31,238 bases of DNA from a virus: positions 1 through 31,238 of IMG/VR virus record IMGVR_UViG_3300036466_000415; one strand, given 5' to 3'. The notes beneath the pieces are model-generated. The model did no database searches. It saw nothing but the letters and a program-made list of their open reading frames with translations, and had not been told where the DNA came from. Positions 8,283 through 11,444 of the stretch are shown piece by piece. The first letter of the stretch is position 1. Every line of letters starts with the position of its first letter. The translations under genes were made by a program, and so were the position numbers.

Positions 8283-9443
8283 ATGACAGTAGAACAAATT
8301 AACTTAGGCACCTCACCAACAGGCGGTGACGGCGATACCGCGCGCCAAGCATTCGAGAAGGTCAATAATAACTTTACTGCCGCCGAAAACGCCGCCAGTC
8401 GATTGGTCGGCGTGGATAGTCCTGAAAAACTGGTCGATAAGGCAGGATTTGAGATCCTAATCAAGGACCGACTAAGGCAAGAGGTTGAGTTTATATCCGG
8501 TGGTAAAAATACGGTGATTTATGACGCCCAAGGCAATCCAAACGTCATGGTTGTCATACCTAGATTTAATTATGAAGATCTGGGATTGCCAGATTTACAG
8601 CTTGGAACTGGTACTCCTACAGCATTTTTAACTAACGGTGCTCCACGTGGCGAAATAATGATTGCCAAATATCTGGCTAGCGCAGGAGGCTCTACATGCT
8701 CAGTTATCGGCGGTGTGCAGCCGCAGGTATACGTTAACTATGACCAAGCAAAGGCTAAATGCACTGACAAAGGCGCTGGCTGGCATTTAATGTCACATCA
8801 TGAGTGGGCCGCTATTTCACTGCTGGCATTTGGCAATGGAACTGTGCCCCGTGGAAACACTTATCATGGACGCGCGCACGATAGGCCAATAGAAACAGCG
8901 ATACGTGAAGATGATGGAGCTCCAGGCGACGCATCCGGAACAGGAAGCACGGACACAGGTAGTGGCCCAGCGACTTGGTCTCATGACCATACTGATTTTG
9001 GTGTGTGCGATTTAGTTGGTAATGTCTGGGAATGGCAAGATCAAATGAAGCTCGTTGATGGTCAGATAGTCACAACGCTAGATAACGCACCAGAACAGCT
9101 AGAATCAAGCTGGATTTCTCAGCAGGCATACTACAACGCATCTGGAGGCTTGAAACTAGACTCATCAGTAACAGTGTCTGGCTCCGTTAACGTTGAATTC
9201 AGGCAGCTTGGCAAGTCAGCGTCATATGTTCCAAATGAGCTTATGCGCCGCATTATGCTCGAGACAGCATCACCTAACACGTTAAATGGCAGGATTTACG
9301 CTGACAATCGCGGGGAAAGACTACCGATCCGCGGAGGCAGCTGGAACAACGGCTCGAGCGCCGGGCTTTCGGCTCTCATCCTCAGTTTCTCGCGTTCGTA
9401 CTCGAGCAGCACGATCGGTTTCCGTCCAGCTTATTTTTCATAA
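8283..9443 (+). CDS. DGR target: variable tail protein with FGE/C-type-lectin-like C-terminal domain
   Basis: A 386-residue protein. Residues 1-45 (MTVEQINLGTSPTGGDGDTA, then QAFEKVNNNFTAAE) are a tail fibre attachment sequence common in phages. From about residue 110 the protein looks like the formylglycine-generating-enzyme type of C-type lectin fold: GWHLMSHHEWAA, then DFGVCDLVGNVWEW, and a C-terminal LPIRGGSWNNGSSAG...IGFRPAYFS. The last 37 residues are the VR. Asn codons of the template are changed here at residues 353, 359, 366, 368, 369, 373, 375 and 377 (now S, S, I, S, F, Y, S, T). The conserved core W354, N355, N356, G379, F380, R381 and P382 is kept. It should display a variable receptor-binding surface at the tail tip. 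Confidence 0.92.
   Translation: MTVEQINLGTSPTGGDGDTARQAFEKVNNNFTAAENAASRLVGVDSPEKLVDKAGFEILIKDRLRQEVEFISGGKNTVIYDAQGNPNVMVVIPRFNYEDLGLPDLQLGTGTPTAFLTNGAPRGEIMIAKYLASAGGSTCSVIGGVQPQVYVNYDQAKAKCTDKGAGWHLMSHHEWAAISLLAFGNGTVPRGNTYHGRAHDRPIETAIREDDGAPGDASGTGSTDTGSGPATWSHDHTDFGVCDLVGNVWEWQDQMKLVDGQIVTTLDNAPEQLESSWISQQAYYNASGGLKLDSSVTVSGSVNVEFRQLGKSASYVPNELMRRIMLETASPNTLNGRIYADNRGERLPIRGGSWNNGSSAGLSALILSFSRSYSSSTIGFRPAYFS
9323..9431 (+). repeat. DGR variable repeat (VR)
   Basis: This 109-bp stretch aligns without gaps to 9904-10012. Ten positions differ. Nine are adenines in the template: G at 9340, 9358, 9385 and 9406, T at 9379, 9387, 9388 and 9399, C at 9412. The tenth is C to G at 9413. This adenine bias is the signature of mutagenic retrohoming. 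The last 18 bp (9414-9431) are identical in both and are the likely initiation-of-homing segment. Confidence 0.95.
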
Positions 9444-9462
9444 AGTTTACTGTGTTTTGTTG

Positions 9463-9480
9463 GTGGCGCGATAGCGCCAC
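9463..9480. other. DGR hairpin/cruciform downstream of VR
   Basis: GTGGCGC (9463-9469), a GATA tetraloop and GCGCCAC (9474-9480) form a perfect seven-pair GC-rich hairpin 31 bp after the end of VR. No T-run follows, so it is not a standard terminator. Size, loop and position match the target-DNA hairpin that raises homing efficiency in the Bordetella phage DGR. Confidence 0.8.
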
Positions 9481-9530
9481 GTGAAGCAAGAAAATTTAAT
9501 CCGTATACTTTTAATTAACAGGAGTTTGAG

Positions 9531-9893
9531 TTGTCAGCATTGATAATAGAAGAGAAGTGCAGAGAGATGATTTTGTTTGGCTATGCTGCAATAAAGCAGT
9601 TCCCCAAGCACGAAACTCACGTTCTTGGCGCAGAAATCAGGCTGTCAATGCTGCAAATGCAGCGCTTAATCATCACCGCGATGAAGCGCTACCACAAAAA
9701 GACCACGCTAACCGATCTCGACATTGAGATTGCGATACTAAAGCGTAGGGTAAGGCTGGCTAAAGATCTGCGGTACGTTGACATAAAACGATATCAAAGA
9801 TGGATAGTTCAAATTGTCGAAATAGGTAAAATGCTAGGAGGCTGGATAAAGTCTCTTGGTTTTCAAGACCGTCAACAGGTTGGCGCATTATGA
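9531..9893 (+). CDS. avd: DGR accessory variability determinant (Avd)
   Basis: A 120-residue basic, all-helical protein. The segment YHKKTTLTDLDIEIAILKRR, followed by VRLAKDLRYVDIKRYQRWIV and EIGKMLGGWIK, is the hallmark of the Avd four-helix-bundle family. In Bordetella phage this protein forms a pentamer, binds the RT and the template RNA, and is required for cDNA synthesis. The start is TTG at 9531, with CAGGAG at 9519-9524; no in-frame ATG gives a full-length protein. Its TGA stop (9891-9893) overlaps the ATG of the RT by 4 bp. Confidence 0.93.
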   Translation: MSALIIEEKCREMILFGYAAIKQFPKHETHVLGAEIRLSMLQMQRLIITAMKRYHKKTTLTDLDIEIAILKRRVRLAKDLRYVDIKRYQRWIVQIVEIGKMLGGWIKSLGFQDRQQVGAL

Positions 9894-11161
9894 ATACACC
9901 GGAACCGATCCGCGGAGGCAACTGGAACAACGGCTCGAACGCCGGGCTTTCGGCTCTCAACCTCAATAACTCGCGTTCGAACTCGAACAGCAACATCGGT
10001 TTCCGTCCAGCTCTTGATCACGCCAGAAGCAATAACCCTAATGGGTGTTGCCAGTGCAATAATGAAAAGGATGCGCCAACCTCGGCTATTGCCGAAACAC
10101 TCACCAAGCCTTTCGACGCGTCGAAAGGCTGCTTATTTGAGGGTATATACGCCTTTGAAAATATCCTTGCCGCAGCATATCAGTGCAGAAAAGGAAAGGC
10201 TAAATCAAATAGCACGCTAAGGTTTTTTAACGAGCTGGAGGAGAACGTCATCCAACTGCAAAATGAGTTGATGTGGGGCATGTATCAGTCATCTGCATAT
10301 CATCATTTTTACGTATTTGAGCCAAAAAGGAGGTTGATCTCCGCTCCAAACTTCAGGGATAGAGTTGTTCACAGAGCTATTTATAACATTATTGAACCAC
10401 TATTTGACAAAACATACTGCCACGACTCGTATGCTTGTAGGCACAATAAAGGGACGCATAAAGGAGCTGATAGGGCACAGCTTTTTATCAAGCGCGTGGA
10501 GCAAAAGTATGGCAAAGCTTATGCGCTTAAAGCGGATATTAGTCGTTACTTCTCAAGCATAGACCATCACATATTAAAGTCGATAATCGCTCAAAAGATA
10601 AAATGTGAACGAAGCAAGTCTCTGCTGTTTTACGTTATAGATTCAAGCCCTAGCGATGAATTTGCGGTTGGGATACCGCTTGGTAATTTAACCAGCCAGA
10701 TATTCGCCAACCTATATTTAAATGAGCTCGACAGATTTGTTAAGCACCACCTCAAAGCTAAAAACTACGTAAGGTACATGGACGACTTTGTGATTATTCA
10801 TCACGAAAAAATTCAGCTTCACGAATGGCGCAGGCAGATAGAGCTGTACCTTAATCAAAATCTAAGGTTAAAAACTAACGCCAAGACGCAGGTGTTTCCC
10901 ATTTCGCGCAACAATGGCAGAGGGCTTGATTTTCTCGGGTATAGGATCTACTCGGATCATAGGCTGTTAAGAAAATGCAGCGTGAAAAGGATAAAGTCCA
11001 AGCTTAAAAAATTTCATTTAGATTACGGCAATGGCGAGATCAACATAAGCGATATAAATCAATCAATACAATCTTGGATTGGGCACGCAAAGCATGCTAA
11101 TGCGCATGGGTTAATGACAAAGCTATTTAGTCAAGCTTTTACGAGGAACGATAATGTTTAG
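9890..11161 (+). CDS. DGR reverse transcriptase with TR-encoded N-terminus
   Basis: A 423-residue protein. The conserved RT starts near residue 82 (LFEGIYAFENILAAAYQCRK) and includes FYVFEPKRRLISAPNFRDRV, SYACRHNKGTHKG, the first catalytic Asp in LKADISRYFSSID (D216), the DGR-type GIPLGNLTSQ (261-270) and the catalytic YMDD at 296-299. It copies TR RNA with errors at adenines. The frame starts at ATG 9890, overlapping the avd stop. I find no in-frame ATG, GTG or TTG after it until about 10264, inside the conserved RT domain, so the TR must be translated unless a rare codon is used. A small phage gene overlaps its end by 8 bp. Confidence 0.93.
   Translation: MNTPEPIRGGNWNNGSNAGLSALNLNNSRSNSNSNIGFRPALDHARSNNPNGCCQCNNEKDAPTSAIAETLTKPFDASKGCLFEGIYAFENILAAAYQCRKGKAKSNSTLRFFNELEENVIQLQNELMWGMYQSSAYHHFYVFEPKRRLISAPNFRDRVVHRAIYNIIEPLFDKTYCHDSYACRHNKGTHKGADRAQLFIKRVEQKYGKAYALKADISRYFSSIDHHILKSIIAQKIKCERSKSLLFYVIDSSPSDEFAVGIPLGNLTSQIFANLYLNELDRFVKHHLKAKNYVRYMDDFVIIHHEKIQLHEWRRQIELYLNQNLRLKTNAKTQVFPISRNNGRGLDFLGYRIYSDHRLLRKCSVKRIKSKLKKFHLDYGNGEINISDINQSIQSWIGHAKHANAHGLMTKLFSQAFTRNDNV
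9904..10012 (+). repeat. DGR template repeat (TR)
   Basis: The template partner of VR, 581 bp downstream of it. It holds about 26 adenines, with ten Asn codons (nine AAC, one AAT) whose first two adenines can be mutated without creating stop codons. Eight of those codons differ in VR. It lies entirely inside the RT reading frame, in the same frame as VR, so it encodes residues 6-41 of the RT as an Asn-rich copy of the target's C-terminus. Confidence 0.95.
10107..10130. repeat. 24-nt perfect palindrome in the TR-RT spacer
   Basis: AGCCTTTCGACG is followed directly by its exact reverse complement, 94 bp after TR and just before the conserved RT domain. RNA from either strand would form a strong hairpin. 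A smaller hairpin, CGGC-TATT-GCCG, lies at 10083-10094. It also encodes RT residues 73-80. It may be part of the structured spacer RNA that DGR RTs need downstream of TR; that function is inferred. Confidence 0.8.
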
Positions 11162-11444
11162 TTACATATATAAGTCGCAGCGCCACAGCGATACTGATTT
11201 AAATTACATGAAAAACCTAGGTATGGATGAGGAGCAAATTAATTCAGTGCTTTCTCAGCGTCAATACGAGGCTGTTGACGGGGCTGTAGCAAAAAGAAAA
11301 GAGGCTTATTTAACTGAGTCAGACCCGTTATTTATAGAAGCTTCATTTGATAATGACGAAGCAAAAGTGCAAGCGTGGAGAGATAAGGTTATTGAGATAA
11401 AGGCCAGGTATCCTATCAACCATGAATTTATGGTTAATAAATAA
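11154..11444 (+). CDS. Small tail-fibre-associated protein
   Basis: A 96-residue protein. It has a helical N-terminal half (GMDEEQINSVLSQRQYEAVD) and a C-terminal ESDPLFIEASFDNDEAKVQA, then WRDKVIEIKARYP. The 'SDPLF...W..K..EIKARYP' pattern is common in short proteins encoded after phage tail fibre genes, some of them fibre chaperones. It overlaps the RT end by 8 bp, and its TAA shares a base with the ATG of L. Its location suggests it serves the variable tail protein rather than the retroelement chemistry. Confidence 0.6.
   Translation: MFSYIYKSQRHSDTDLNYMKNLGMDEEQINSVLSQRQYEAVDGAVAKRKEAYLTESDPLFIEASFDNDEAKVQAWRDKVIEIKARYPINHEFMVNK

Follow-up and report, generated by a model that had tools for sequence, protein, structure and literature searches.

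An RT reading frame that probably runs through the template repeat and spacer RNA in one clade of DGRs

In the DGR of Bordetella phage BPP-1, the spacer that follows the template repeat (TR) folds, recruits RT-Avd and primes cDNA synthesis at TR, and the native RT gene, brt, has no clear ribosome-binding site; when one was added, activity in E. coli rose about 100-fold (PMC12875486). A priming spacer RNA of DGRs is hard to define by sequence alone. In BPP-1, brt starts at its own ATG after the spacer, 144 nt past TR, and both TR and spacer lie outside the gene. A class in which 'TR overlaps RT ORF' was defined in 2012 as DiGReF structural group 3; the definition is by position only, and the relevant passages of that paper do not discuss frame, start codons or RNA constraint (PMC3521204). 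Later on, in 2023, one descriptive sentence on the Pseudoalteromonas phages ACA1 and ACA2 stated that TR is translated there as an N-terminal extension of RT, in passages that do not cover selection, RNA structure or distribution (PMC10612066). In Vibrio phage VP58.5 (Vhmlvirus), gp20 is likewise annotated from the same ATG as in the locus described here, with TR inside.

The locus lies in a virus record of 31,238 bp, the whole of which was analysed and is referred to as the window, and the DGR sits between lambda-type minor tail genes. It shares with BPP-1 a homologous RT and the order VR target, avd, TR, spacer and RT, but a separate RT start downstream of the spacer, as in BPP-1, is not found in the window: the 5' end of the RT reading frame instead contains TR, which is the fused TR-RT variant (ACA1-type, DiGReF group 3). 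ACA1 and ACA2 belong to the same clade, with an RT about 70% identical and the same avd-ATGA-TR-RT fused frame, although they are P2-like phages whereas the window has lambda-type tail genes. The RT of VP58.5 and of phage VHML is 72% identical to that of the window; the VHML record differs by a +1 frameshift after TR and has its RT annotated from a later ATG. Phage phiWae15 presents a split version of the fused arrangement. The initial annotation of the window took this organization as new, which the 2012 class and the statement on ACA1/ACA2 contradict. The arrangement itself is known; what is added here is the clade-wide test, the loss of the start codon and the evidence for dual coding, none of which was found in the DGR literature surveyed, and earlier remarks on the arrangement may exist.

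The window contains a TR/VR pair that is nearly identical and differs chiefly at TR adenines, an Avd recognized by PF22296 and NF033474, and an RT of DGR type, with YMDD (the YxDD motif) at residues 296-299 and the BPP-1 RT as its best solved relative (Table 1). The variable repeat (VR) occupies the C-terminus of the target, ending 9 nt before the stop codon, and the FGE-sulfatase match predicts a C-type-lectin-like fold for this protein. The TR peptide is similar to the Mtd C-terminus. Across relatives, differences between TR and VR are A-biased, a pattern that touches on mutagenic retrohoming indirectly and would be consistent with it. Hairpins of phage DGRs have been described as a 7-10 bp stem with a GRNA loop (PMC3240598), and one of this form lies downstream of VR. 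Beyond the RT, a 96-aa ORF (11154-11441, + strand) overlaps the RT stop and matches phrog_5714, a family of unknown function; almost every fused locus and several of the sister DGRs keep this ORF directly after RT, and it is likely to be a fifth gene of the cassette.

Table 1. Features of the DGR locus, in window coordinates
Feature	Position	Strand	Evidence
DGR target gene, 386 aa, FGE-sulfatase / C-type-lectin-like tail protein	8283..9443	+	PF03781 1.6e-6; phrog_2889 1e-127
Variable repeat (VR)	9323..9431	+	99/109 identical to TR; 9/10 mismatches at TR adenines
Hairpin/cruciform downstream of VR, GTGGCGC-GATA-GCGCCAC	9463..9480	+	Sequence; fits phage DGR description (PMC3240598)
avd	9531..9893	+	PF22296 1.6e-29; NF033474 1.6e-29
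ATGA, RT start codon overlapping avd stop (TGA 9891-9893)	9890..9893	+	In 31/31 fused loci
RT reading frame including N-terminal extension, 423 aa	9890..11161	+	RVT_1 5.1e-20; 8ub7 E 7.8e-61 over residues 82-413
Template repeat (TR), in frame as residues 6-41	9904..10012	+	Frame = VR frame
Spacer, residues 42-82, putative dual-coding segment (protein + RNA)	10013..10135	+	pN/pS 0.43; synonymous O/E 0.52
RNA helix P1	10010-10015/10068-10074	+	RNAalifold, pair counts
RNA helix P2	10022-10023/10056-10057	+	RNAalifold, pair counts
RNA helix P3	10029-10038/10043-10051	+	RNAalifold, pair counts
RNA hairpin P4	10083..10094	+	RNAalifold, pair counts
RNA hairpin P5, within 24-bp palindrome 10107-10130	10108..10129	+	6/9 pairs with both-side changes
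Codon homologous to sister-phage RT start ATG; here TTA	10133..10135	+	0/15 fused lineages with ATG/GTG/TTG

The initial annotation placed the RT start at an ATG overlapping the avd stop and noted that TR is read from there in the same frame as VR. Both points agree with our comparison of frames, and its coordinates are correct to within a few bases. It had also seen no further ATG, GTG or TTG in frame until about 10264; early ones are indeed absent, but the next is TTG 10268, followed by ATG 10271, and before TTG 10268 the frame offers only codons of rare type (ATT 10088, ATA 10145, ATC, CTG). Since homology to the solved BPP-1 RT (PDB 8ub7) begins at residue 82, a start at 10268 would drop part of the conserved protein. 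A start at ATG 9890 would give an RT protein that carries TR-encoded residues, with an Asn-rich N-terminus that resembles the C-terminus of the target because TR and VR are copies; the mimicry of the target seen in it by the initial annotation would, as a function, be speculative. The PHROG RT profile phrog_1423 already matches the RT N-terminus including the extension. Shine-Dalgarno pairing ahead of ATG 9890 is weak (-4.4 kcal/mol), and a consensus scan of 9400-10559, which is weak evidence, found no internal promoter before TR. Across the fused clade, the stretch 9876-9895 (AACAGG....GCATTATGA) that precedes the RT start is strongly conserved. GCATTA stands ahead of TR in the sister phage 1F273_PE002 too, where it is not a start; besides marking the start, the conserved stretch may act as an RNA signal.

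RT homologues were gathered from viral contigs, bacterial genomes and phage records, and the fused set was defined by two properties, an intact start and an RT core of at least 68% identity; 31 loci, the window included, belong to it and represent 15 lineages. All 31 have the ATGA overlap with avd and a frame open from the ATG through TR into RT, a comparison of N-termini across homologous DGRs that favors the start proposed initially. A TR/VR pair was detected in 30 of the fused loci, and in each of them TR, VR and RT share one frame, free of stops. In a comparison set of 46 loci, either more distant or excluded, the offsets are spread over the frames (19/21/6), and 34 contain stops. The distance from TR to the RT core is 211, 214 or 217 nt in the fused loci (210 nt in two, in which the TR match is longer by one base), and its phase is therefore constant, whereas outside the fused clade the spacing varies in phase. 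The RTs of the 46 comparison loci mostly begin at a codon about 90-123 nt ahead of the core anchor, and the RTs of sister DGRs with A-biased TR/VR pairs start after TR. In the tree the fused loci fall within one 33-row clade (support 100/99), and they count accordingly as one evolutionary origin. Four rows of this clade were not scored as fused, namely two edge-cut contigs, L013, whose TR is altered, and VHML, where one base is inserted; some fused loci bear the label 'open with internal start' on account of incidental internal start codons.

In the sister phages 1F273_PE002, phiWae15, phiARM81mr and L061, the ATG of RT corresponds in the alignment to residue 82 of the fused protein. The 15 fused lineages have ACT, TCT, TTA, ATT, ACA, TCA or ACG at this codon, and never ATG, GTG or TTG. 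No canonical start exists between TR and residue 126 in 13 of the 31 fused loci, and in the remaining ones ATG, GTG or TTG appears at scattered positions (residues 53-121). The openness of TR was not used as proof of translation, because its role in supplying VR keeps it open; the test was made instead on the spacer (residues 42-82), since it is without a VR counterpart. Its pN/pS in the RT frame is 0.43, against 0.80 (sd 0.15) in a null of shuffled columns that reached this value in 0 of 1000 cases, and the two remaining forward frames give values near 1. The RT frame over the spacer holds no in-frame stop in 15 lineages, whereas shuffles of alignment columns gave 29 stops on average and never zero in 1000, and each of the other five frames is interrupted by stops in 9-15 of the 15 lineages. 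Spacer indels are multiples of three. Judged by these comparisons, the spacer is under selection of protein type in the RT frame. Together, the ATGA in 31/31 loci, the lack of a conserved downstream start, the codon-type selection in the spacer and the loss of the sister start argue that RT carries the translated TR as an N-terminal extension, as initially proposed.

The same segment is constrained as RNA. Synonymous change over residues 42-82 is 0.52 of expected, compared with 0.91-1.07 in all 41-codon windows of the core, and this constraint ends near residue 82. A common fold could be drawn for 23 spacers; 29 pairs were counted, with a standard pair in 96.9% of cells, and 11 of the 29 changed on both sides, giving a covariation score of 0.306 versus at most 0.085 when the partners were slid. 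The 3' border of the spacer RNA thus becomes visible in this clade as the end of synonymous constraint, next to helices that covary. The covariance model also matches directly 3' of TR in relatives with a separate RT start (L093, L094, L042, L032, L067 and L095), with E-values of 5e-13 in phiARM81mr, 2.7e-11 in phiWae15, 3.3e-10 in L042 and 3.5e-4 in 1F273_PE002. Because the RNA element is common to unfused relatives, it is probably the RT frame that was extended, in the 5' direction, over an older element. The BPP-1 spacer gave no match to the model, so the identity of the spacer described here with the one studied in BPP-1 rests on position and role. An Rfam search matched no DGR RNA family; outside the DGR, it returned RF02221 (sRNA-Xcc1; 73.9 bits) at 2746-2830 on the - strand. 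The 24-bp palindrome was considered as a terminator and rejected: terminator-like matches numbered 1 versus 2.1 expected by chance, its tail is not T-rich, and it corresponds to P5.

Very probably, then, the window holds a DGR whose RT frame starts at ATG 9890 and extends over TR and the spacer RNA, the spacer being read both as codons and as a fold. Most likely, ribosomes ending avd would re-initiate at the ATGA, since Shine-Dalgarno pairing is weak yet the overlap is invariant, and would traverse TR, the spacer and then the RT domain. On untranslated RNA the spacer would fold, recruit RT-Avd and prime the mutagenic copying of TR, a role assigned to it by analogy to BPP-1, and the same RNA would be used by ribosomes and by RT at different times. 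The view of the initial annotation that one stretch of RNA is both template and message is supported to this extent by the sequences. A benefit could be that RT is made only after Avd and that no ribosome-binding site is needed within the spacer. More tentatively, and with a chance that we consider small but real, the template may regulate itself: translation through TR and spacer would unfold the priming RNA, so that a transcript would act as message first and as template later, switching once ribosomes have cleared and RT-Avd has accumulated, possibly with a preference in cis for its own product. The clade constitutes a natural test of whether one RNA can be a DGR template that is both translated and copied, and it also lets the link of RT dosage to Avd be examined. 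RT starts annotated after TR in the fused group are probably wrong.

It could be argued that RT has a ribosome site of its own within the spacer and is initiated there at a rare codon, such as ATT 10088 or ATA 10145, in which case the open frame ahead of it would be incidental. Sister RTs do begin at about residue 82, AAGGAT precedes ATT 10088, the VR frame alone predicts an open TR and the spacer is short; but the fused lineages do not agree on any rare start at a plausible place, residue 82 itself varying among the codons listed above, and AAGGAT lies 15 nt from ATT 10088 and is paired in P1. Moreover, the spacer shows codon-type selection and no stops despite having no VR counterpart, and the TR-to-core phase is constant in the fused clade and variable outside it, all of which makes such a start improbable. 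Still less credible is a separate short ORF over TR and spacer with RT reached by a second re-initiation. This is how phiWae15 is built, where a 92-aa ORF (L094:2223-2498) covers TR and spacer and ends in TGA-GT-ATG at the RT start, but the window and its clade have neither stop nor start at that place, and the uninterrupted frame rules out a separate TR mini-ORF for the window.

Compatible with the extended RT frame is the idea that selection acts on the TR peptide for a role of its own, for example in binding the target, Avd or RNA, or in acting in cis on the nascent template. The residues encoded by the spacer are under purifying selection and G52, C54 and E59-K60-D61 are invariant in the clade, but much of this invariance falls on invariant RNA, GAAAAGGAT being fixed at base level and pairing in P1, while TR residues are conserved anyway for VR. 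The extension is absent from sister RTs, and the AlphaFold model, poor overall (mean pLDDT 55.8), offers no confident fold for residues 1-90 (pLDDT about 26-40), so that a peptide function appears rather unlikely. The reduced synonymous change of the spacer could in principle reflect a gene that overlaps it in another frame in place of an RNA fold, and the window does contain a 68-aa ORF (10014-10220) and an antisense ORF (9760-9996). However, the base pairs covary and unfused relatives also yield matches to the RNA model; with stops in the five other frames in 9-15 of 15 lineages, this candidate was rejected and is extremely improbable.

Two members of the clade deserve separate mention. The VHML record (L091:3205-3220) has one extra T relative to VP58.5 just past the loop of the spacer hairpin; its avd contains an N. 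This one-base insertion splits TR from RT; either the record is wrong or an unfused RT exists within the clade, and the annotated RT start of VHML may stem from a sequencing error. In L013 (313-430), about 18 changes separate TR from that of L090, its near-identical relative; almost all of them fall on TR adenines, and the TR flanks do not match the VR flanks. This TR is either a cDNA that homed into TR itself or an assembly chimera.
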